From a virus: 34,876 nt of DNA. The translations under genes were made by a program, and so were the position numbers. The stretch lies in the IMG/VR virus record IMGVR_UViG_3300032893_000201, positions 1 through 34,876 of that record; one strand, given 5' to 3'. Positions 2,072 through 32,100 of the stretch are shown piece by piece. The notes beneath the pieces were generated by a model. The model was not told the origin of the DNA, did no database searches, and saw only the letters and a program-made list of their open reading frames with translations. How positions within the stretch are numbered: the stretch's first letter is position 1; each line of letters opens with the position of its first letter.

Positions 2072-2269
2072 ATGATACAGCAAGAAGGAATGATTATCAA
2101 ACAAGCGTCGGCATTGGCGGGCAAGGAGAATACCCTTCGCCAAAGCATGGTCGCTCGTATCGACTCGTACAAAGACAGCGTGAAGCAACTGGAGCGGCTT
2201 CTTTCGGTCTTGCCGGATGAGTTGCTCGACGTGTCGATGACCCAGGTCTATCGATTGCTGGGGCTATGA
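2072..2269 (+). CDS. small helical protein of unknown function
   Basis: A protein of 65 residues. The ATG at 2072 has GGAGG five bases upstream, which makes it better than the ATG at 2060. The sequence is almost entirely amphipathic helix, with heptad-like hydrophobics through SYKDSVKQLERLLSVLPDEL, so a short coiled coil is likely. No family was recognised. It is co-transcribed with the fibre-like gene before it and overlaps the lipoprotein gene after it by four bases (ATGA), which suggests coupled translation. Confidence 0.55.
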   Translation: MIQQEGMIIKQASALAGKENTLRQSMVARIDSYKDSVKQLERLLSVLPDELLDVSMTQVYRLLGL

Positions 2270-2628
2270 AAATGCGCGCGCTATGGCTTGCTTTGTTCGT
2301 GGTTTGCGTCGCTTGCGTCACGCCCAAATCCCCACAGGCCGCGCTCGCCGACAGCGAGATAGCCTTGACCAGCGCCGTGCAAACAGCAGACAACTATCTC
2401 GCGTCGCAATGTCAAGACGCGCATAGTGATGCTTGCGGCAAGGCGCTGACGTGGCACGTGACGATGCACGCGCGCGCGGAAGCCGCAGCTTCGCTGCTTA
2501 AGGCTGCGCATACCTCGCTCGACATCAACGACCCTGCAGCGATGCAATCGGCGCTTTCGACAGCGAACAGTCTGATAGCGCAGATCAACAGCATGGTTAA
2601 TGCGAAGCTGACGAAGGAGGTGAAATGA
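2266..2628 (+). CDS. small phage lipoprotein
   Basis: A protein of 120 residues with a hydrophobic signal segment (ALWLALFVVCVAC, 5-17) ending in a probable lipobox. C17 is preceded by V15-A16, although position -3 is Cys rather than Leu/Val/Ile, so the box is imperfect. The mature part is alanine-rich helix with a spaced cysteine pair (C49, C57). Small lipoproteins of this shape, with AV/AL-rich helices around a C..C loop, occur widely in tailed phages of Gram-negative hosts. Their function is not established. The next gene overlaps by ATGA. An outer-membrane spanin role cannot be ruled out, but no inner-membrane partner lies next to it. Confidence 0.5.
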   Translation: MKMRALWLALFVVCVACVTPKSPQAALADSEIALTSAVQTADNYLASQCQDAHSDACGKALTWHVTMHARAEAAASLLKAAHTSLDINDPAAMQSALSTANSLIAQINSMVNAKLTKEVK

Positions 2629-2831
2629 TCCCCGTCGGACTCATCATCGCGCTGGCGCAGAGCGCCGTGCAGGCAGTGCAAGCGATCCAAGCGGCGAACG
2701 TCATCAACGCCAAGCCTGATCCCACGCCCGAGGATTGGGCCGAGCTCGACAAGGCGCTCGACGCCGCATTGGCCGCGAGCACGGTTAAAGAACAAGCTAT
2801 AATGGCGATGCGCGCCGCGCAGACAAAATGA
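2625..2831 (+). CDS. small hydrophobic N-terminus protein, unknown
   Basis: A protein of 68 residues with a strong ribosome site (AAGGAGG before ATG 2625). Residues 1-25 are hydrophobic and alanine/valine-rich and could insert in or lie along a membrane. They are followed by PTPEDWAELDKALDAALA, an acidic helical pattern often seen in small phage proteins that follow the lipoprotein family. Overlap with both neighbours (ATGA on each side) places it in one translational block with the lipoprotein and the spike. The function is unknown. Confidence 0.5.
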   Translation: MIPVGLIIALAQSAVQAVQAIQAANVINAKPDPTPEDWAELDKALDAALAASTVKEQAIMAMRAAQTK

Positions 2832-5496: not shown

Positions 5497-5636
5497 AGCC
5501 ACAGTCGACTAACCACATGAAGAAGAGCAACTTTTCACGCACGAGGCGGGGCGCGGCGACGCCCAATCCTGTAGTGAAGCGAAGCGCGAAAACGCCTGGC
5601 GTGAAGGGACGGGGCAAAAAGAGTGGTGGATATTGA
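5493..5636 (+). CDS. short basic protein, 47 residues
   Basis: A short open frame running from an ATG that overlaps the previous stop (ATGA at 5493) to a TGA that overlaps the ATG of the lysis gene (TGATG at 5634-5638). The product is strongly basic (MKKSNFSRTRRG near the start, VKGRGKKSGGY at the end), with Lys/Arg making up roughly a third. Perfect packing between two overlapping starts, with no gap, supports real coding despite the small size and a weak ribosome site. It resembles in composition the other small basic proteins at 6280-6674. The function is unknown. Confidence 0.45.
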   Translation: MKPQSTNHMKKSNFSRTRRGAATPNPVVKRSAKTPGVKGRGKKSGGY

Positions 5637-6280
5637 TGAACCTCACGCTCGAGCGTAGCGAGTACGGCGAGAATGGGGTCTTTGGGCGGCTCGGGCCGTT
5701 GTATACGCTCGAGCACGCCTATTCTATTGAGAGTGCGCACGGGAAGATCTGGCAGGCCAAAGTACCCCTAGGCGTCTATAAATGTGTGCGCGGCAAGCAT
5801 CGAACGAAGCATATTGGCGAGTTTGAGACGTTCGAAGTAACCAATGTTCCTGGACACACTGGTATACTGTTTCACGTCGGCGGAACGGAAGTCGACAGCG
5901 AGGGTTGTATACTACTGGGCCTAGCTCGTCATGGTATGTCGATGATATATAGCAGCGACGCATTCCGACGCTTCATGCAGTCGCAGCTAGGCGTGAACGA
6001 ATTTACACTTACAGTGAAGGATAGAGATACAATGGCAGAGTCAGTCGTAGTGCCGGCCGCCGTCGATGTGCCAGCCGCCCCGCCGGCCGCGGCTGCGCCA
6101 AGCATCGTGCCTGGAGTCCACAACAAAGTGGCTATTCCGACGTTCGCCGGGATGCTGGTCGGCACAGTGCTGCTGATCGCGAAGCAAAAGTGGGGTCTGG
6201 ATTTGAGCGGCCAGGAGGTTGTGATCACGCAGTTGATCACGGGCCTCATCGGTTGGCTCGTTCCGCAAGGAGGTTCATGA
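5636..6280 (+). CDS. DUF5675 lysis-region protein fused to a holin-like membrane tail
   Basis: A protein of 214 residues starting at ATG 5636. Residues 1-128 match the DUF5675 pattern: GVFGRLGPLYTLEHAY near the start, then VPGHTGILFHVG (71-82) and DSEGCILLG (87-95). The conserved H80...S88-E-G-C91 recalls the His...(S/T)xGC motif of L,D-transpeptidase-type enzymes, which suggests action on peptidoglycan, though the catalytic role is unproven. A Pro/Ala linker (about 135-160) leads to two hydrophobic segments (about 165-182 and 195-210) separated by a polar turn. The arrangement ends in GLIGWLVP, typical of small phage holins. The two functions are usually separate neighbouring genes. The in-frame ATG at 6032 (M133) could also give a free holin. 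Confidence 0.6.
   Translation: MNLTLERSEYGENGVFGRLGPLYTLEHAYSIESAHGKIWQAKVPLGVYKCVRGKHRTKHIGEFETFEVTNVPGHTGILFHVGGTEVDSEGCILLGLARHGMSMIYSSDAFRRFMQSQLGVNEFTLTVKDRDTMAESVVVPAAVDVPAAPPAAAAPSIVPGVHNKVAIPTFAGMLVGTVLLIAKQKWGLDLSGQEVVITQLITGLIGWLVPQGGS
6032..6280 (+). CDS. possible internal-start holin (82 residues) within the DUF5675 fusion
   Basis: In the same frame as the gene starting at 5636, an ATG at 6032 is preceded by GAAGGA at 6016-6021, ten bases upstream. Translation from here would give a protein with a Pro/Ala-rich N-terminus and two membrane segments, the size and layout of a normal phage holin. The gene would then make both the full-length fusion and a separate holin, as other phages do with nested lysis starts. 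The spacing is longer than ideal, so this remains a hypothesis. Confidence 0.3.
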   Translation: MAESVVVPAAVDVPAAPPAAAAPSIVPGVHNKVAIPTFAGMLVGTVLLIAKQKWGLDLSGQEVVITQLITGLIGWLVPQGGS

Positions 6281-6450
6281 TGCCTTGGACAGCGAAGGAC
6301 GCGAAGCGTCATACGAAAAAGGCCGGATCGGCGAAGTCGAAGCGACAGTGGTCGCACATCGCCAATTCTGTTTTGGCAAAGGGTGGAAGTGAAGGGTCAG
6401 CGGTTCGACAAGCGAACGCTGTTGTTAAACGGTCCAGGAAAGGAAAGTGA
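6280..6450 (+). CDS. small basic phage protein
   Basis: A protein of 56 residues. ATG 6280 is preferred over ATG 6277 because AAGGAGG ends six bases before it. It begins MPWTAKDAKRHTKKAGS and continues with WSHIANSVL, a short conserved pattern (W-[ST]-AKDA.rHTKKA...W..vAN.vL) that recurs in small proteins of phages and bacteria. It is highly basic and helical, consistent with nucleic-acid binding. The function is not established. It overlaps the lysis gene's stop by one base. Confidence 0.55.
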   Translation: MPWTAKDAKRHTKKAGSAKSKRQWSHIANSVLAKGGSEGSAVRQANAVVKRSRKGK

Positions 6451-6452
6451 AA

Positions 6453-6674
6453 ATGAGCGTTATGGGAAAGAAGGGTCATGGTGGAAAGGCTGCGCAGCAC
6501 GCGCCAGCGTTTGGCAATGATGCCCCGCGGAACTCGAAGGCAGCGCGGACGCCTTTGGGCGGCTCGCGTGAGCACGGCGGGCGCGGCGCCGCAGGCAAGG
6601 CGACACGCGGTTCGCGCAAGGGCAACCGCGGTGGCTCACGCAAGGCGGCAAGCGTAGGAGGCTGGAATGCCTGA
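6453..6674 (+). CDS. Gly/Arg/Lys-rich disordered protein
   Basis: A protein of 73 residues from ATG 6453; AGGA lies about eight bases upstream, which favours it over GTG 6447. Nearly every residue is Gly, Lys, Arg, Ala or Ser (for example GSREHGGRGAAGKATRGSRK), with no hydrophobic core, so it is probably disordered and DNA- or RNA-binding. It overlaps the next gene's start by eight bases. Its position just before TerL suggests a DNA-condensing or packaging accessory role, but this is inference only. Confidence 0.5.
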   Translation: MSVMGKKGHGGKAAQHAPAFGNDAPRNSKAARTPLGGSREHGGRGAAGKATRGSRKGNRGGSRKAASVGGWNA

Positions 6675-6948
6675 GCGCGGAACGAAATATCGGGGCAGCA
6701 CGCCGTCGAATCCACTGTTCGGTGGGCCGCAGGGCCGGGCGATGTCGGCTCCGAAGCGCAACGGCAACGGGCCGCACTACGCGGAGTCGAATGAGGGTTT
6801 GGCTGATCAGGTCGGTGGATTCATGGCTGAGCCGGCGAGCGGCGCGCAAGGGCTCAATGTGCAGTTTCCGCCGCCAACGCGGGGCAAGGCTGTCGTCGAC
6901 GTTAATGCCGATGAAAACGGTACAGCGCGAAAAGGCGGTCGCCAGTGA
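6667..6948 (+). CDS. hypothetical Gly/Pro-rich protein upstream of TerL
   Basis: A protein of 93 residues; AGGAGG lies five bases before ATG 6667. It has a low-complexity N-terminus (SNPLFGGPQGR) and an acidic segment (HYAESNEGLADQVGGF) that could form one short helix. It overlaps the TerL start by four bases (GTGA), so expression is tied to TerL. No family was recognised. Confidence 0.5.
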   Translation: MPERGTKYRGSTPSNPLFGGPQGRAMSAPKRNGNGPHYAESNEGLADQVGGFMAEPASGAQGLNVQFPPPTRGKAVVDVNADENGTARKGGRQ

Positions 6949-8447
6949 CAAGTGTCTCCTCCCCCTCTTCTCTAACGCAGCATTTTGCTGCTCCTGAAGA
7001 GGTTTCCCCCGAAGAGCTCGTATCGTTGTGTGCTGTTGATCACGAGCTCTTCGGGCGGACTTTTTTTCCCAAAGCGTATCGTTATCCGAGTCCGCCATGC
7101 ATGCGCGAGATGGATCGAGTGCTATACAATCCGAAGAATCGGCTGTGCGCGTTCGAGCTTTGGCGAGGCAGCTCGAAGACTACGCGGCTTCGTGTATTCA
7201 CAGCCAAACGAATTGCGTACGGGATATCTCATACTATTCTGTACATTTCGAGATCACAAGGCCACTCGATCAAATCGGTAGAGTGGATCAAGAACGCCGT
7301 GGAGTACAATCGCCTCTTTTCCGACTCGTTCGGACTGAGACCAGGGTCAAAATGGACTGGTGAGGAGATTGAGATATTCCACGGAATCGACGAGTATCCC
7401 ATACGGATTATTGCTATGGGCATTACGGGCCAGATCCGTGGCTTTAACGTGGACGACTTTCGACCTGACCTGATTGTTGTGGACGACCCCGATGGCGAAG
7501 AGACCACTTCCAGTCCCGAGCAAATTACAAAAACCCAACAACTATTCTTTGGCGCAATTAAAAACTCGCTCGCGACCCGCGCTGATGCACCCAACGGCAA
7601 GCTTGTTATCGCCCAGACACCCAACGAGGCAGGGGACCTTATCGAAACCTGCGTCAAAGACCCACAGTTCGCCTCGCTCGTCTTTGGCTGCTTCGACCAC
7701 GAAGGTAAGTCGCGGTGGGAGATGATGTTTCCCACGGAGGAATTGTTGAATGATAAGGCGGCGTATATCAAGCGCAACCAGCTCTCGATTTGGCTCCGCG
7801 AGATGGAGTGTACGATCTCGAGCCGCGAGGAGCGCGCGTTCGATCTGGAGTGGATTGAGTATTGGACAAATACTCCGCCTGCAATGGCAGTCTACATTGC
7901 GATTGACCCCGCGTCTAGTGAGGCCGAAACCGCTGACTTTCAGGCTATTGCGTGTGTGGGCTTCTTTGCGGGCAAGACGTACCTGCTCGAATATTCGCTA
8001 TCGAAAGGTAAAGATCCTGAAGAGATCGCCACGGAGTTCTTTCGCCTCGTTCGCAAGTGGAAGCCGATCGCGGCGATCGTCGAAAGCGTCTCATATCAAC
8101 GAGTCCTTGCATGGTATCTGCGGAACGCCATGGCAAGACACAGAACGTACATAACTGTGCATGAGGTGGACGATCGGCGCAAAAAGAGCGACCGCATCAT
8201 TCAGGCGTTGAGCGGGCGTTGCTCGAGCGGGAACTTTTTTATTCGCCGAGAACATGACGAATTTATTGCACAGTATTCGCAATATCCAGCACAGCCGTCG
8301 AAGAGCTACCGCGGGAAGGACGACTTGCTCGACGCAGTGGCAATGGCGATCACCTTCGCGGGCGGAAAAATGGAAGCGATTGAGGGAGACTATAGCGTGA
8401 TTGACGACGCCTATGAGCCGTTGAAGCTGCAGTGGAGCGCGCCCTAA
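6945..8447 (+). CDS. terL: terminase large subunit
   Basis: A protein of 500 residues that pumps DNA into the prohead and cuts the concatemer. The ATPase half has a P-loop-like WRGSSKTTR (73-81), a Walker B strand LIVVDD (176-181) followed by acidic residues, and a TQ/QTP coupling-type motif (VIAQTPNEAG, 221-230). The nuclease half has RNase H-type acidic residues: D321 in YIAIDPASS, E380 in AAIVESVSY and D463 in KDDLLDAVAMA. The length is normal for the family. The start is a GTG overlapping the previous TGA. The portal gene follows directly in a TAATG overlap, the usual order. The P-loop lacks the second Gly of the classical GxxxxGK form, as in many TerL proteins. Confidence 0.9.
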   Translation: MTSVSSPSSLTQHFAAPEEVSPEELVSLCAVDHELFGRTFFPKAYRYPSPPCMREMDRVLYNPKNRLCAFELWRGSSKTTRLRVFTAKRIAYGISHTILYISRSQGHSIKSVEWIKNAVEYNRLFSDSFGLRPGSKWTGEEIEIFHGIDEYPIRIIAMGITGQIRGFNVDDFRPDLIVVDDPDGEETTSSPEQITKTQQLFFGAIKNSLATRADAPNGKLVIAQTPNEAGDLIETCVKDPQFASLVFGCFDHEGKSRWEMMFPTEELLNDKAAYIKRNQLSIWLREMECTISSREERAFDLEWIEYWTNTPPAMAVYIAIDPASSEAETADFQAIACVGFFAGKTYLLEYSLSKGKDPEEIATEFFRLVRKWKPIAAIVESVSYQRVLAWYLRNAMARHRTYITVHEVDDRRKKSDRIIQALSGRCSSGNFFIRREHDEFIAQYSQYPAQPSKSYRGKDDLLDAVAMAITFAGGKMEAIEGDYSVIDDAYEPLKLQWSAP

Positions 8448-14602: not shown

Positions 14603-15744
14603 TGCCACTCGAAACAGTACAATGGATTGGCGATCTGGTCGCAACGAATCCGCCAGATACGGACCCACGGTCGCAGGGCGCAGCGCATTTGCGAAATATC
14701 AAAGCGGCGCTGTTAGATTCGTTTCCAGGCTGCGTGCAGATGATCATCGGCGCAGGCGTCGCTACGGGCACGGCGAACGCGATGCATCTTGCGTTGAGCC
14801 CTGATCCTGGTGCGCCCGTCGACGGTGGAGCGTTTCTTGTCAAGGCTGTGGGCGAGAATACAGTATCGAACCCGACGCTGCAGATCAATTCGCAGGGCGC
14901 TGTAAGGATTACGAAATCAGGCGGGCTGGCGCTGACGATAGGCGACATCGTTACGGCAGGGCAGTGGATTCTGCTTGCATACAACGGCACAAGCGCAACG
15001 CTCGATCTGTTAAATCCGGCAACAGGCGTGAGCGGCACGCCGATGACTATCTCTGGCGACACGACGCTAACATCGGGCAATATTGCTACACAGTCGTTCA
15101 TTACGGCTACGGCCAACATCACACTACCAGCTGGCTCTACAGTTATTCCGTATCAAAGCTACCGTTTCAAGTCGATGACATTCGGCAACGTGCGGCTGAC
15201 GCCTAACGGCAGCGATACGATTGAGGGTGTCAACGCGGCGTTTCGGGTTCCAGCGTGGATACAAGCGGACGTGATGTGGACCGGCTCGGGATGGGTGATG
15301 TCGCGCGGGAATGAAAGCTATGTGGGCGAGTCGCGCGAGTTCAGCGGCGCGAGCGTGCCGATTGGTTGGCAGCTGGAGGATGGATCGGCGCTGTCGCAGG
15401 CTACGTATGCAGGGCTTTTCGCTGTGATCGGGTCGACGTTCGGTGCGAGTGGTGGGAATTTTAATGTGCCTGATCATCGAGGAAGGTTGGGTTTGGGCGT
15501 GAGCGGATCGCACGCGCTCGGTACGACGGGCGGCGCGGAGACGCATGCTATGGGCCCAACGGAGATGCCAGCGCACACTCACACAGTCGCGTCGCAGACC
15601 AACCCGAATCCGGGCTCTGGTGGTGCGTTGATGGTATCGAACAGCGGGGGCAATCAGAATACGAGCACGACGAGTGCAGGTAGTGGTGCAGCATTCAATA
15701 TCATGAACCCCTTCGTGGCGAAGAACTTCATCATCAAGCTATGA
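14602..15744 (+). CDS. tail fibre with C-terminal tail-collar domain
   Basis: A protein of 380 residues. The N-terminal 230 residues are short polar strands, typical of a fibre shaft or attachment part. From about residue 254 the tail collar domain (Pfam Collar type) is clear: GWQLEDGSALSQATYAGLFA, then IGSTFGASGGNFNVPDHRGR. It is followed by the His-rich PAHTHTV (about 321-327), which in related fibres helps coordinate metal ions at the receptor-binding tip. The end FNIMNPFVAKNFIIKL is the usual closing strand. It is the likely host-recognition fibre. The next gene starts in its stop (ATGA). Confidence 0.8.
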   Translation: MPLETVQWIGDLVATNPPDTDPRSQGAAHLRNIKAALLDSFPGCVQMIIGAGVATGTANAMHLALSPDPGAPVDGGAFLVKAVGENTVSNPTLQINSQGAVRITKSGGLALTIGDIVTAGQWILLAYNGTSATLDLLNPATGVSGTPMTISGDTTLTSGNIATQSFITATANITLPAGSTVIPYQSYRFKSMTFGNVRLTPNGSDTIEGVNAAFRVPAWIQADVMWTGSGWVMSRGNESYVGESREFSGASVPIGWQLEDGSALSQATYAGLFAVIGSTFGASGGNFNVPDHRGRLGLGVSGSHALGTTGGAETHAMGPTEMPAHTHTVASQTNPNPGSGGALMVSNSGGNQNTSTTSAGSGAAFNIMNPFVAKNFIIKL

Positions 15745-17069
15745 ACGTTCTCGTCATCGACACGGACGTGGTAGGGCTGGATCTGTGCTTGCGCATGAGA
15801 GCGTACGATCACGACGTGCGCTGGTTCATTCCGCCAGAGAAAGACGGCACTCCGTGCAGAGCGGGTGATGGGATGGATCTGAAGAAGGTGACGGAGTGGG
15901 TGGATTATCTCGAATGGGCTGATTTGATCGTTCCGACGATGAATGATAAGCATGTGCAACGAATGGAGCCGTTTCGCAAAGCTGGCCTGCCTATCTTCGG
16001 ACCGTCGCTGGAGAGTCGCAGGCTCGAAGTGGAGCGCGAATTCGGCATGCAGGTATTGCAGCATGCTGGTATCGAGGTACCAGAATACGAGGCGTTTAGC
16101 GACTATGATAAGGCGATAGCGTACGTCAAGAAAATGGATGAAGCGTTCGTGTCGAAGCCGCTGGGCGATTGCCCAGACAAGTCGCTAACGTACGTCGCGC
16201 CGACGCCCGAGGATCTGGTGTACATGCTGCAGCGTTGGAAGCGCAATGGCAAGAACATTGGCCGGTTCATGCTGCAAAAGAAGATTGACGGGACGGAGTT
16301 TGGCGTGTCGCGATGGATGGGGCAGGGTGGCTTTATCGGATCGCCTAACGAATGCTTCGAGTATAAGAAGATAATGCCTGGCGATATGGGCGTGAACACT
16401 GGCGAGACCGGAACGGTGATGAAGTATGTGGAGAAGTCGAAGATATACGACGAGCTACTCAAGCCGCTTGAGCGATATCTGGATAAGATCGGCCATCGGG
16501 GAGATTTGGCTGTTGGAGGAATGGTTGAGAACGGAACCGGTAAGGCGCTCCCGCTCGAGTTCACAGCGCGGCGTGGCTGGCCAGAGGATTTCCTTTTCAA
16601 CGCCCTTCATCGTGGAGACCCCGCGAAGTGGATGCTTGATGCGATGCGTGGCAAGGATTCCCTTAAGTTTTCTACGGACGTTGTGGTAGGGTTCTTGGTA
16701 TGGATTCCGGACTTTCCGTACTCGCACGCGACGCAGAAAGAAGTCGAGGGCATTCCGATTCGTGGGCTAACGAACAGCGTGCTTGAAAGCGTGCATTTTT
16801 GCAGCGTGATGTTGGATGTCGCCCCATGCAAGAAAGATGGTATAGTGCAGGACGACGAGACGTTTTGCACGACGGGCGACTACGTTCTGGTCGTAGATGG
16901 TAAAGGAGATACGATTACGAAAGCTCGAGAGAACGCACTAGCGGTTTTGCGAAAAATTGGCTTGCCGAATGACCCAGCATGGCGAGAGGATATCGCAGAT
17001 GCAAGGCTCGGGAAGAAGATACAGAAGCTCCAAACCTACGGCTATGCGCGTGAATTTAGGTTTTCATGA
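15741..17069 (+). CDS. ATP-grasp protein, PurD-like (GAR synthetase-like)
   Basis: A protein of 442 residues. Its plan resembles phosphoribosylamine-glycine ligase and related ATP-grasp enzymes. It opens with a Rossmann-like strand (MNVLVIDTDVVGLDLCLRMR) and a pre-ATP domain with DLIVPTMNDKHVQ. An ATP-binding region follows, with lysine in FVSKPLGD, LQKKIDGTEFGVSRWM, and the acidic metal site LEFTARRGWPE, which corresponds to the 'EFN.RfGdPE' of PurD. These enzymes use ATP to join a carboxylate to an amine. It is much altered from housekeeping PurD and sits between a fibre gene and the nozzle gene, so a role in purine synthesis is doubtful; a peptide-bond-type modification is equally possible. 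It has no clear ribosome site and is probably coupled to the fibre gene by ATGA. Confidence 0.65.
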   Translation: MNVLVIDTDVVGLDLCLRMRAYDHDVRWFIPPEKDGTPCRAGDGMDLKKVTEWVDYLEWADLIVPTMNDKHVQRMEPFRKAGLPIFGPSLESRRLEVEREFGMQVLQHAGIEVPEYEAFSDYDKAIAYVKKMDEAFVSKPLGDCPDKSLTYVAPTPEDLVYMLQRWKRNGKNIGRFMLQKKIDGTEFGVSRWMGQGGFIGSPNECFEYKKIMPGDMGVNTGETGTVMKYVEKSKIYDELLKPLERYLDKIGHRGDLAVGGMVENGTGKALPLEFTARRGWPEDFLFNALHRGDPAKWMLDAMRGKDSLKFSTDVVVGFLVWIPDFPYSHATQKEVEGIPIRGLTNSVLESVHFCSVMLDVAPCKKDGIVQDDETFCTTGDYVLVVDGKGDTITKARENALAVLRKIGLPNDPAWREDIADARLGKKIQKLQTYGYAREFRFS

Positions 17070-26457: not shown

Positions 26458-29400
26458 ATGGCACTCTCGATTTCAGCTGAAGAGATCTATCCCGCCCCGC
26501 CCCCAGGGATGCTGCCCGCGCCTGGCAGTCCGCCCGGCATGCTGACGCCACCGAATCCAAAGGCAAAGCTGCCGACGCGCGAGGCAATGCAGGTTGAGCC
26601 GGAGCAGGAAATTGCGGACACGGCTGTCCCTGTGCCTGCGCCAGCTGCGCCACAGAGCGTGCCAGCGAGCGAATTCACAGCGGCGCAAGAAGTGCCAGTG
26701 CAAGAGAGCGTGCCTGCGGGGCAGGTTGAAGATATGGTGCCCTTGGGCTCTAACATCTTCTCGAAGGAGTATTGGAAGCGGCAGGCAACGCGCATGGCGG
26801 AGGGAATAGGAAAGCAGACGCTGAGTGCGGAGCTGTTGCTGCGAGATATCGGCGGTGCGCTTGGCGGCACGCCCAACGAACAGCGAAAAGAAGAGCTGCG
26901 AGCTGGCATTCGTGAGGCCGAAGAACATCCCACGCGCGTGGCGGAGCAAGAGAGCGTGCCGAGCGAGATCGTCAGCGGCCTCGTTGGCATGGGTCCGCAG
27001 GCGGTGGGGCTGGTTACCTCGCCCTTTGGAATGATGGCTACGTTTGGCCTAGGCCAGTTCATCGATACGTACGGGCGCGGCAGGGCCGAAGGGGCGAGCG
27101 GCGAGAAGAGCGCGCTGACGGGCGCGCTTGCGGGCGGAGAGAGCGCCGGGCTGGCGTGGGCGATGGGACCAGCGGGCAAAGCTGCGGCTGGCGCATTAGG
27201 TCGGCTGGGCATGGATCGAGTGATCGGCACGTTCGGCGACGAGGCTGTAAAGCACATCGTTGCCAATGCGCTCGTAGGCGCAGGCATCATGCCGTCGATG
27301 AACGAAGCCGTAGCGCTGACAGAAAAGGTCGCGTACCGGCCTGACATGACCTGGGGCGAGTATTTGCAAGAGGTAGAGAAGCGATTGCCGCGCGAGGCGT
27401 TGGTCGGCGCTGCGGCTGGCGCGGCGTTCGGTGCGGCGGGGCCTGCGATGCAAGCGCCAGGACGATTGGCGGGTAGGCTCGCAGAGTGGCAGGTTGGACG
27501 CAGAGCGCAAGAGGGCGTAACGCGGCTGCCGGCAAGCGTAGCTGAAGAACGTGGCGTGGCGCCAGAGCAGGTGTTTCCGCCTGTTGCTGCTGGCGAACTG
27601 CCCGGAAGGGCCGTGCCGGAGCCTTCGACAGTCGAGGGGGTTGCCGCGCCTCCTGGCCAAGCGGAAGCAAGCCCCGTATTGGCTGGACTCGAGGAGGCTC
27701 CGGAGGCGGCATTGCGCCCGCGGACTTACGAGGAGCGAAGGGAGCTGTACGAGCGGCGGTCGGCAGAAGCTTCGGCCGAGATTGAACGGAGGCTGAGCGA
27801 GCGCAGAGCGACGCTGCAGGATCGCGAGACGCTTGAGCCATTCGTGAAGGGGCAAGAGGTCGAAGTACAGACGAGCGAAGGGCAATGGCTAAAGACGAAG
27901 ATCACGGATATTGATGAGTCGCGCGGCGAGGTGCGAACGGAGCCCACGCTCGGGCTGGATGCGTTCAAGCCGAATGATGTGCGGTTGCCCAACGAGAGAC
28001 GAGGCGCGGGAGACTACGCGCAGTTCGATCCCTATGCGAACCAGCGCGAGGTGCCCAACGATCCGTTGAAAGTTAGCGCATTGCGCAGATTGCGCAGCCT
28101 ACAAAAGCTGCACGACGAGGGACGCATTGGCAGCGAAGGCTATATCGACTCGACGAAGGAGCTGTTGAAGGCGCTGGAAGAGAAGCGCGCTGCGCAGGCT
28201 GATGTCGGACCGGAATTTCTGGCGAGAGGGCCTGCGTGGATACAGGAGCGATTGATTCGCGCCGGGCGGACGGGAGAGCTGGCGCCAGAAGCGGTCGACA
28301 TGGCGCTGTGGTTCTTGGGCAAGAATCCGGCGATCGGCCGGGACTTGGCAGTTTCGATTCGCGAACTGGAAAGGGGTAAGGCTGGAACGTACGATCCGGT
28401 GCAGCGGATCATGAAGCTGGCGCGACAGAGCCGCATGACAGATGCGGTACTGCACGAGATGCTGCATCACACGGAGAAGATGTTGCCACTGCGCGTGCGG
28501 CAGGGCGTGATCAACAGCTGGTCGCGGGCGCTGGCGCGGGAGACGCGCAAAGCCGAAGCACAGGCCGCGAAGCCCTCTGCGACGCAGGAGATGAAGACCC
28601 GCGCACGGGCGCTGCGCGAACTGCCCCTGGCCGTGGTGGGCGACGATATGTCGCGAAGGATGGTTTTCGAATTCTTCAAACGCGGCGTGCTGAAACATGG
28701 CGATTATCAGCTGTCGTCGCCGAGCGAGTTCTGGGCGATGAACGCATCGCGGGTTGTGGAGGCAAGGTATCGCGCGGAAGGCTGGGTGCAGGAGGCGAAA
28801 CAGTGGCTGATGGAGTTCTTGCAGAAGCTGAAGGCGCTCACGGGCATGAGAAGCGATGCGACGGTGCTTCGCGGATTGCGTGCGCTGTCGAAGACGACGG
28901 GCGAGCAAACGGCGCGCGAGCTGCTGCAGGGTTCGCCCATGACTCGCGAGGAGATTCGCAGCTCCCATATGCAGGCTGGCGAGAAGATTGCCAATGCGCT
29001 GGCGCCGGAAGGCGAGCTCGACGATGCGTTCGTTCGCCATGTGCTGGAAGGAGTCGAAGCTACGCCTGAGCAATGGCGGGAGCTGAGCGATCTGTTGAAC
29101 GAGCGTCGTGAAGGTCCACGCGTCGCACTAGAGGAACAGCGTGAGCTGATCAATGGACTGTTCGATGAGCGGAGCGGTATCAGCGCTGAGGATCTGATCG
29201 ACGTGCTGCGTGAGAATCTAATCAACGATCCCATGAAGCTACGGACGGATCTCGCGAAGGTGCAGGCAGCGGCGTTCTTTCCTGATACGCTGCGGCGCGA
29301 TGCGCAGTTCATGCGGGATCAGAAACGACTGCGCGAGCGCCTCGACGTTGACGTGGATAGGTTTTCGTGGCTGACGCTGAAGGCGCAGACGCTGTTGCAG

Positions 29401-32100
29401 ATTGCGAAGAAGAATCCGCGCGTGCCCTCGTTACATAGCTACGTTCAGCATCAGATGGAAATGTGGCAGGCGAAGCAAGCATGGACGACGCGTGCGAACC
29501 GCACGCTGAAGAAGTGGGAGAAGCTGGGCAAGGAACAATCGCAGCTGCTGTCGCAGGCGAAGCTTGAAGAGACAGTCAACGGGCGCTTTTATGCGCGCGA
29601 AGAGCTGCTTCGGCGCGGTATGACGCCGAAGACGCTGGAGGTTTATGATCAGATACAGAACGACTTCAAAGACGTGCTGACGGAGATGGAGAATGCGAGC
29701 GTCGCGCAGGCTGTGAAGTTGATGCAGGAAGGCAAGACGCCTTTGGGCACTAATCCGATAGCGGATATTCGGAAAGACTTCGCGACGATGCGCAACCGGC
29801 CGTACTTTCCGCTGGCGCGTTTCGGTGAGTACGGCGTTTCGATTAAGGCCAATCGCGACCTGGAATGGAACGGAAAGCAGTACAAGAAAGGACGCAAAAT
29901 CGCCGTAGAGATGCATGAGACGGGCATCGAACAGCGCGCGCGACTGCAAGAGCTGCGGGCGGAGCTTGGCCAAAGCGCAACGGTTAGCGATTTCTACGTG
30001 AACGATCGTACGTTCGAGGGCGTGCGCGGGCTGCCGAGCGAGCTAGCTGCTATGGTCGCGAAGCGTCTCAACCTCGCGCCGGAACAGCTCCGGGCGCTGC
30101 ACGAAATGCAGCTCGATCTCGCACCCACGCAGAGCTTCATTAAGCATTTGAAGAAGCGGCGTGGGATTGAAGGCTTCTCGCAGGACGCTATACGTGCCTA
30201 CGCAGCATATTTTCAGCGTGGTGCCGGCTGGCTGAGCCGACTGCAGTTCATGGACAAGCTCGACGCGGATGTTCGTGCTACGCGGGAGAGTGCTCGAGAG
30301 CTCGCTGAACAAGGTTTGTACTCCCGTCCACGAGAACGATTGGCCGCGTACATGGATCGTCAACTTGAAAGGATAAGACATCCTGAAAGTGACCTTTCTG
30401 CGCTGCGCGCTTTTGGTTTCATTTGGTATTTGGGCTTTAACGTCAAGGCCGCGGCTGTCAATATGACACAGGTGCCGATGATGACTTTACCCTATTTGTG
30501 GCACAGGCACGGTTTGGCGAGAACGACTGCGAGCTTGGCTAAAAGTTATGCGAAAGTTGCCGGGAATGCCCTCGACGGATTGCCAGAACGGATCAAGGAT
30601 AAGGTCACATTCAGAGGCAAGAAGCCACAGTTCATCTCCCCAGAAGAACAGCAGATGATGAAGCAGGGGGAGAGCGAGGGATGGCTGGACGAGAGTCAAG
30701 CTTCCATGCTTGCGGGATATAGCGATCCATTCGTGCTGGCAAGGTTGGCAGGCGGCGAGAAGTGGTATCGTGACATCAAGCGCTGGGGCGCGTACAGCGG
30801 CTGGATGTTCCAGCGGGCCGAGATGATCAACCGCAAGGTTACGGCGCTGTCTGCGTATGAATTGGAGCGTGGGGCTGGTGCGAGCCATGACGAGGCTGTC
30901 GAGGCTGCGCACGCCGCTGTCAATACCACGCAGTTCGAATACGCTGCGTGGAACAGGCCCGAAATGATGCAGGGAAAAAAGAGTGCCTTGTTTCTCTTTT
31001 CGCTCTACAACCAGCATGTTTTGCATTTCGCCTTCGGCGGTGATCCGGCGTGGAAGAAGTTCTGGATGGTTCAGCTCGCGATTGGCGGCATACTCGGCCT
31101 GCCAGGTTCGCAGGATCTGCTCGACGTTTTCGATTTGGCGACTGAGAAGATTGCAGGAATAGAGCCATTCAATTCGAAGCGCAGCTTGCGGCTGTGGCTC
31201 GATGAGCATCTGGGACAATATATGCAGGCATTGCATGTGAACTCCGATCTGCTGATGCATGGGATATCGCGCTATAGCTTCGGATTGACGGCGCTCGGCG
31301 CGCCGGCGCTTGATTTCAGTGGTAGTGTGTCGCTGGGCAATATCAAGGTCGGGCCGCTGCAGGATCCCACAAGCGCACCCTTTGGAGCTACTCCGAAAAG
31401 TGGAGATGAGTTTCTGTCTAGAAAGATTCAAGATCTAGGCGGGCCGCTGGTTAGCTTGCCCTTCGCGCTCATTCGTGGGTTGCTCGATGACAAGACGCCC
31501 GACCAGTACAAGCGCTTTTCGGGCGCCATCCCCGTCACGATGAAGGCTATTGGCGATGCTTGGAAGTCTGGCCAAGAGCCAAAAGCTGGCTCGCTGGAGG
31601 AGCGTTTGCCGTGGTGGCTGCAGGGCATGGGGGGCTATACCGATCGCAAGGGGGATGTTACTTTCCCTTATGATTTTGAGGATGCTGAGCAGCGAGCCGA
31701 ACACAATGCGAAGTACTTCAATTTCACTTCGACGGCCGTTAATAAACAGCTGGAGCGACATGGCGAAGAAAGTAAGATCGTTGAGTTCTATCAGGAAAAA
31801 AGAGCGCACTTGCTCGCCTCGCTCGCTATGGCGCGACAAGTGCACGATCGGGAGGCCATTAGCGACGCCTTCTCGGAGATACGCAAGTTCAATGAAACCG
31901 TGCCACTGAAAGAGCTGGGCATCACGGGAGCGTCGATTCAAGAGACGTTGAAGCGACGTGAGACGACGAAATATAAGATTGAGCATCAGATTCCTCAGCA
32001 GAAGCGATTGTATCGGCTGTATCGCCAGATGCAGCGCGAAGACGAGGACGTCACGACGAACCCTTCCGCGCCTGGGGCACTCGAGCGCACTGGTCCGTGA
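26458..32100 (+). CDS. giant polyvalent internal virion protein (zincin-like and PLxRFG domains)
   Basis: A protein of 1880 residues, one sixth of the window. Residues 1-110 are Pro/Ala/Val-rich and disordered. About 165-340 is Gly/Ala-rich and hydrophobic (GAAAGAAFGAAGPAMQAPG) and likely membrane-active. A metalloprotease-type motif H666-E-M-L-H670-H671 lies in a helix (DAVLHEMLHHTEKMLP). About 900-1100 is charged and helical. PLARFGEYG (about 1118) is the signature of the PLxRFG domain found in very large phage proteins. FNVKAAAVNMTQVPMMTLPY (about 1324) and a hydrophobic stretch (MVQLAIGGILGLPGS) follow. Such proteins are packaged inside the head and ejected with the DNA. Zn-peptidase activity against peptidoglycan or protein is plausible but unproven. 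It overlaps the convergent HTH gene by 50 bases. Confidence 0.75.
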   Translation: MALSISAEEIYPAPPPGMLPAPGSPPGMLTPPNPKAKLPTREAMQVEPEQEIADTAVPVPAPAAPQSVPASEFTAAQEVPVQESVPAGQVEDMVPLGSNIFSKEYWKRQATRMAEGIGKQTLSAELLLRDIGGALGGTPNEQRKEELRAGIREAEEHPTRVAEQESVPSEIVSGLVGMGPQAVGLVTSPFGMMATFGLGQFIDTYGRGRAEGASGEKSALTGALAGGESAGLAWAMGPAGKAAAGALGRLGMDRVIGTFGDEAVKHIVANALVGAGIMPSMNEAVALTEKVAYRPDMTWGEYLQEVEKRLPREALVGAAAGAAFGAAGPAMQAPGRLAGRLAEWQVGRRAQEGVTRLPASVAEERGVAPEQVFPPVAAGELPGRAVPEPSTVEGVAAPPGQAEASPVLAGLEEAPEAALRPRTYEERRELYERRSAEASAEIERRLSERRATLQDRETLEPFVKGQEVEVQTSEGQWLKTKITDIDESRGEVRTEPTLGLDAFKPNDVRLPNERRGAGDYAQFDPYANQREVPNDPLKVSALRRLRSLQKLHDEGRIGSEGYIDSTKELLKALEEKRAAQADVGPEFLARGPAWIQERLIRAGRTGELAPEAVDMALWFLGKNPAIGRDLAVSIRELERGKAGTYDPVQRIMKLARQSRMTDAVLHEMLHHTEKMLPLRVRQGVINSWSRALARETRKAEAQAAKPSATQEMKTRARALRELPLAVVGDDMSRRMVFEFFKRGVLKHGDYQLSSPSEFWAMNASRVVEARYRAEGWVQEAKQWLMEFLQKLKALTGMRSDATVLRGLRALSKTTGEQTARELLQGSPMTREEIRSSHMQAGEKIANALAPEGELDDAFVRHVLEGVEATPEQWRELSDLLNERREGPRVALEEQRELINGLFDERSGISAEDLIDVLRENLINDPMKLRTDLAKVQAAAFFPDTLRRDAQFMRDQKRLRERLDVDVDRFSWLTLKAQTLLQIAKKNPRVPSLHSYVQHQMEMWQAKQAWTTRANRTLKKWEKLGKEQSQLLSQAKLEETVNGRFYAREELLRRGMTPKTLEVYDQIQNDFKDVLTEMENASVAQAVKLMQEGKTPLGTNPIADIRKDFATMRNRPYFPLARFGEYGVSIKANRDLEWNGKQYKKGRKIAVEMHETGIEQRARLQELRAELGQSATVSDFYVNDRTFEGVRGLPSELAAMVAKRLNLAPEQLRALHEMQLDLAPTQSFIKHLKKRRGIEGFSQDAIRAYAAYFQRGAGWLSRLQFMDKLDADVRATRESARELAEQGLYSRPRERLAAYMDRQLERIRHPESDLSALRAFGFIWYLGFNVKAAAVNMTQVPMMTLPYLWHRHGLARTTASLAKSYAKVAGNALDGLPERIKDKVTFRGKKPQFISPEEQQMMKQGESEGWLDESQASMLAGYSDPFVLARLAGGEKWYRDIKRWGAYSGWMFQRAEMINRKVTALSAYELERGAGASHDEAVEAAHAAVNTTQFEYAAWNRPEMMQGKKSALFLFSLYNQHVLHFAFGGDPAWKKFWMVQLAIGGILGLPGSQDLLDVFDLATEKIAGIEPFNSKRSLRLWLDEHLGQYMQALHVNSDLLMHGISRYSFGLTALGAPALDFSGSVSLGNIKVGPLQDPTSAPFGATPKSGDEFLSRKIQDLGGPLVSLPFALIRGLLDDKTPDQYKRFSGAIPVTMKAIGDAWKSGQEPKAGSLEERLPWWLQGMGGYTDRKGDVTFPYDFEDAEQRAEHNAKYFNFTSTAVNKQLERHGEESKIVEFYQEKRAHLLASLAMARQVHDREAISDAFSEIRKFNETVPLKELGITGASIQETLKRRETTKYKIEHQIPQQKRLYRLYRQMQREDEDVTTNPSAPGALERTGP

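Follow-up and report, generated by a model that had tools for sequence, protein, structure and literature searches.

An in-frame fusion of a DUF5675 domain and a hydrophobic two-helix tail in a short-tailed-phage-like fragment, a candidate membrane-tethered endolysin

Endolysins that carry an N-terminal enzyme and a C-terminal two-helix membrane domain have been described as ORF39 of Enc34 and as M4Lys (PMC8943055, PMC7143992). In these two systems the full-length protein is toxic or lytic and the enzyme alone is not. Their holin-independent lysis depends on the C-terminal membrane domain (PMC8943055, PMC7143992). A passage of the Enc34 paper attributes the same layout to the Siskin endolysin (PMC8943055). 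The TpeE family of Clostridium sporogenes includes an endolysin to which a holin-type membrane segment is naturally joined by translational fusion (PMC9527704). In the two-polypeptide endolysins, an in-frame internal start gives rise to a C-terminal isoform, as tested experimentally (PMC9430671).

Here we describe a phage gene that resembles the Enc34 and M4Lys class in design and differs from it in its enzyme, a domain of the DUF5675 family. The gene lies in a window (the whole stretch of DNA that was analysed, 34,876 nucleotides) from the virus record of an uncultured phage. The window looks like a fragment of a short-tailed phage and carries genes for the large terminase subunit, portal, major head protein and adaptor. 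Among isolates, Microcystis phage Mel-JY34 and Vibrio phage ABTNL-3 are nearest to it, and the PaP3-type phages are more distant. The features of the locus are as follows.

5636-6280, plus strand: fused gene with DUF5675 domain, linker and two-helix hydrophobic tail (open frame, PF18925, AlphaFold2)
5636-6025, plus strand: DUF5675 domain, residues 1-130, probable peptidoglycan enzyme (profile match; AlphaFold2 block of pLDDT 93-98)
6015-6024, plus strand: TGA 6015 and TAG 6022, stops in other frames that shortly precede ATG 6032; a one-base indel would split the frame
6017-6034, plus strand: possible internal start at the domain boundary, GAAGGA 6017-6022 and ATG 6032-6034 (predicted Shine-Dalgarno (SD) duplex)
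6032-6121, plus strand: Pro/Ala-rich linker, about residues 133-162 (sequence; AlphaFold2)
6128-6184, plus strand: first hydrophobic helix, residues 165-183 (VAIPTFAGMLVGTVLLIAK; KD 1.86 over 19 residues)
6218-6265, plus strand: second hydrophobic helix, residues 195-210 (VVITQLITGLIGWLVP; KD >1.7 over 16 residues)
6945-8447, plus strand: terminase large subunit, a downstream packaging landmark (phrog_38, E=2.9e-67)

The frame opens at ATG 5636, closes with the stop at 6278-6280 and encodes 214 aa with zero internal stops. PF18925 (DUF5675) matches residues 4-115 (E=2.6e-15, 56.7 bits against a curated cutoff of 26.7), and the match to phrog_1501 spans residues 4-129. The AlphaFold2 model, built with 99 relatives, has a mean pLDDT of 85.2 over the whole protein. 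Residues 131-170 form an unstructured linker of pLDDT about 52-55, and the two tail helices are placed at about 170-186 and 194-208. A preliminary description of this DNA had joined a DUF5675 domain, a Pro/Ala linker and two hydrophobic segments in one frame, and the profile match, the model and the intact frame bear this out. It had also placed H80 (5873-5875), S88-E-G and C91 (5906-5908) of the HxGN...GC motif correctly; all are present. In 100 diverse members of the family, and again in 34 close ones, H80 and C91 never vary, although the search patterns partly favour H80; C91 lies outside the patterns of some scans. Residue 83 (5882-5884) is G in the window protein where the family has a near-invariant N83 after HxG, and this replacement might affect activity. 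E26 is not claimed as a catalytic residue: it is invariant in 100 sequences, yet several close relatives have another residue in its place.

Codon usage marks the tail as true coding sequence in the frame of the domain. Its mean log-odds in that frame is 0.304, compared with a mean of 0.273 for the real genes of the phage. The 95th percentile of out-of-frame values is -0.168, and no out-of-frame stretch attains the value of the tail. We infer a membrane role for the tail from its composition. Even at E=10, residues 133-214 matched no holin family of Pfam or PHROGs; Pfam gave zero matches and PHROGs one meaningless match. Of the two kinds of profile that the preliminary description proposed to seek on this protein, DUF5675 was matched and a holin family was not. 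The tail has no similarity to any ORF near the DUF5675 relatives and no detectable similarity to M4Lys, and a free copy was not found among the relatives' sequences or viral contigs searched. Exact-peptide scans of viral contigs were made with the whole protein, with the tail and with the terminase and likewise recovered no close relative. Because composition shuffles of the tail yield two hydrophobic stretches 26% of the time and no holin family is matched, its two-span character rests on composition and predicted helices, not on homology. Membership of a holin family is rejected for want of a profile match. With neither a family match nor a homologue, the label holin exceeds the evidence, and the supported term is membrane hairpin. 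The protein has no N-terminal hydrophobic segment, and its hydrophobic segments occur only from residue 163 on. A SAR endolysin is rejected since the N-terminal signal-arrest-release helix is missing.

The fused gene shares with Enc34 ORF39, M4Lys and Siskin an N-terminal wall enzyme (a putative one in the case of DUF5675) without a signal sequence, a linker and a C-terminal two-helix domain. In each case a single gene lies in or near the lysis cassette, and the lengths are similar (237 aa, and 214 aa here). The enzymes are unrelated: that of the described proteins is all-helical and lysozyme-like (PHA02564), whereas DUF5675 is mostly beta-strand. Lytic activity has been shown for Enc34 and M4Lys, while the fused gene is known from sequence and a model. 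Given the different enzyme and the dissimilar tail, the gene would work like this class without being a homologous member of it. The TpeE fusion is further removed, as it has the holin first, one membrane helix plus an amphipathic helix and another enzyme, and no internal start is proposed for it (PMC9527704).

The closest relatives of the domain itself are the stand-alone DUF5675 proteins (PF18925, phrog_1501), which have the same domain, the same H80 and C91 and a place among membrane and spanin genes, but lack the membrane tail. Scans by pattern and by family recovered 191 DUF5675 loci, including 8 from isolates, and 33 more were added from the closest group for a total of 224. The sample is redundant, with 103 loci remaining at a 75% identity cut of the 179 usable IMG/VR loci in the first set. 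A membrane-tail fusion was found in 0 of the 224 other loci examined, many of them redundant. In the first set the 3' end is closed in 190 frames; C-terminal extensions reach 49 residues at most, and a hydrophobic segment is present in none. The 33 closer loci are likewise unfused. The window domain is 38-52% identical to this close group, and in the alignment no more than about a dozen residues separate the FxLxV strand from the ends of the free proteins; at this point the window domain meets ATG 6032. The fusion is thus derived and unique in the sample, because the relatives are unfused and the window domain ends where the free proteins end. As far as the searches show, an enzyme and a membrane tail in one frame are new for the DUF5675 family. 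No DUF5675 relatives were found in plasmids or bacterial genomes.

The neighbours of DUF5675 point to a role in lysis. In 90 non-redundant loci, a strongly hydrophobic helix is encoded by 53 of 118 adjacent small same-strand genes against 48 of 343 genes further away (odds ratio 5.0, Fisher p=5e-11). A small membrane protein gene is adjacent in 50 of the 90 loci and at most two genes away in 63; these counts are approximate, since the gene models are greedy ORF choices. Some neighbours belong to holin and Rz/spanin families of Pfam and PHROG. Two close relatives (L227 and L242) carry, in this order, DUF5675, a small membrane protein, an Rz-like spanin and a lipoprotein (Rz1) nested in the Rz gene. 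The earlier statement that the enzyme and the membrane protein are normally separate neighbouring genes agrees with both the absence of fused relatives and this enrichment. From the enrichment and the gene order, DUF5675 is most likely an endolysin, and its sequence suggests a Cys/His wall enzyme.

The literature searched reports no enzyme assay for DUF5675, and we know of no assayed DUF5675 protein. Its IHxGN..D(S/T)xGC motif aligns weakly by hhalign (P 0.007-0.027) with the IHGTN..SxGC motif of L,D-transpeptidases. In this comparison the His...(S/T)xGC motif of the YkuD enzymes falls on H80 and C91, although the spacing from His to Cys is shorter in DUF5675. DUF5675 homologues of crAss-like phages are annotated as L,D-transpeptidases. 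The window protein has no Pfam match to YkuD, a comparison of the DUF5675 fold with the PDB gave no match, L,D-transpeptidases included, and a search of solved structures by sequence and fold returned nothing significant. The domain is also predicted within proteins of 868-1251 residues, for example in Ralstonia phage RP31, which suggests virion-borne versions, and it occurs in small ssDNA phages.

The nearest isolated relatives have lysis enzymes near the terminase. In PaP3 a T4-type lysozyme sits between the small and large terminase genes, in Vibrio phage ABTNL-3 a membrane protein and a GH108 endolysin lie upstream of the terminase, and in MW202697 the terminase large gene is overlapped by a DUF5675 gene. 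Between the fused gene and the terminase large gene of the window (6277-6945, plus strand) there are small, very basic or Gly/Lys/Arg-rich frames, such as 6447-6674 and one from about 6277-6280. A second cell-wall enzyme was not found among the window genes scanned. One further pair of genes was considered.

2266-2831, plus strand: two small genes, a 120 aa lipoprotein-like one (2266-2628) and a 68 aa one with a hydrophobic N-terminus (2625-2831) (sequence, hydropathy)

Genes of similar-looking type lie downstream of DUF5675 in L219 and L238. The pair has no family match and no match among the relatives' ORFs; it may, on weak grounds, represent further lysis genes. A definite spanin or holin assignment is unsupported by any match. 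Two other window genes are of separate interest. The frame at 15741-17069 (plus strand) resembles phosphoribosylamine-glycine ligase (purD), with TIGR00877 at E=8e-25, far below its cutoff, and PF01071 at E=5.6e-10, above its cutoff. It stands directly after a tail collar-type fibre gene and among structural genes, an unexpected site for a purine-synthesis-like ATP-grasp enzyme. The frame at 26458-32100 (plus strand) codes for 1880 residues, among them a PLxRFG domain (NF032893, E=5e-77), and also has DarB-like PHROG matches; its product is probably a virion protein that is injected.

Several explanations of the fused gene can be weighed. The preliminary description proposed one gene with two products, in which the full-length fusion would cut and a free 82-residue holin from ATG 6032 would make the hole. 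This ATG is exactly at the domain boundary, with 9 nt between it and GAAGGA. For endolysins it is established that an in-frame internal start can add a C-terminal isoform to the full-length protein; the short form there is the C-terminal part of a soluble enzyme and not a membrane protein (PMC9430671). Free small membrane proteins also adjoin DUF5675 in relatives. However, predicted SD pairing is -5.5 kcal/mol at 6032 and a stronger -8.1 at 5636, and an equal or better SD precedes 47 of the 228 in-frame internal ATGs of the phage (21%). The ribosome site is ordinary, and its location at the boundary alone is suggestive. The motif and the start codon of the proposal are real and well placed, but the SD sets them apart little and the presumed holin has no homologue anywhere searched, nor a free copy in any relative found. 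We consider two products unlikely. The fuller version, in which the endolysin would have its own holin as a tether and the enzyme to pore stoichiometry and the timing of lysis would depend on a pair of ribosome sites within one frame, appears rather unlikely.

The fusion could also be an artefact of assembly or sequencing, a false one-base indel having joined a DUF5675 gene that ends at about 6015-6024 to a membrane protein that begins at ATG 6032. TGA 6015 and TAG 6022 precede the SD-bearing ATG where an ordinary two-gene junction is expected, all 224 relatives are unfused, and the fusion comes from a single metagenomic contig. Yet homology and codon usage keep one frame on both sides and so confine an error to about 18 nt (6014-6031). 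Indels, or substitution at two codons (AAG, AGA), would be required, and the domain matches its relatives undisrupted up to FTLTV. The short target makes an artefact unlikely per contig and the lack of fused relatives keeps it alive; overall it seems quite improbable. We find it very improbable that the hairpin is a mere anchor for a non-lytic enzyme, one that would modify the host envelope at infection or block superinfection while a cassette outside the window brings about lysis. The window is probably a fragment (34.9 kb against about 44-45 kb in related isolates), so another endolysin could be missing, and the domain is also predicted in virion-sized proteins and occurs in small ssDNA phages. 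Against this stand the strong tendency of DUF5675 to lie beside membrane and spanin genes and the window scan, which found no other wall enzyme.

The explanation that we favour, as a moderately probable one, is an endolysin tethered to the membrane, which arose when a stand-alone DUF5675 lysis enzyme and a neighbouring small membrane protein were fused in frame. The protein would be made late, and its N-terminal Cys/His domain, which lacks a signal sequence, would fold in the cytoplasm. Judging by hydropathy and the model, the C-terminal helical hairpin would enter the inner membrane and hold the enzyme on a flexible tether. At the time of lysis, by analogy with M4Lys and Enc34, the hairpins may cluster and perturb the membrane, by themselves or together with another holin, and the tethered domain could then reach and cut peptidoglycan. 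A minor free tail product from ATG 6032 would be allowed and is not needed. On the same analogy, the membrane-anchored lysis enzyme of the preliminary description would be a good inference. Several observations count against a tethered endolysin: N83 is replaced by G, the DUF5675 fold has no PDB match, the tail has no homologue and the junction is known from one contig. Even for Enc34 there is no explanation of how a C-terminal anchor lets a cytoplasmic N-terminal domain cross the membrane.

With its unrelated enzyme, the fused gene would be a separate instance of the puzzling endolysin design in which the enzyme comes first and the membrane helices last, a design whose passage through the membrane is still to be explained. 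The neighbour evidence gives DUF5675, a family of 'function unknown', a concrete and testable role as a phage endolysin.
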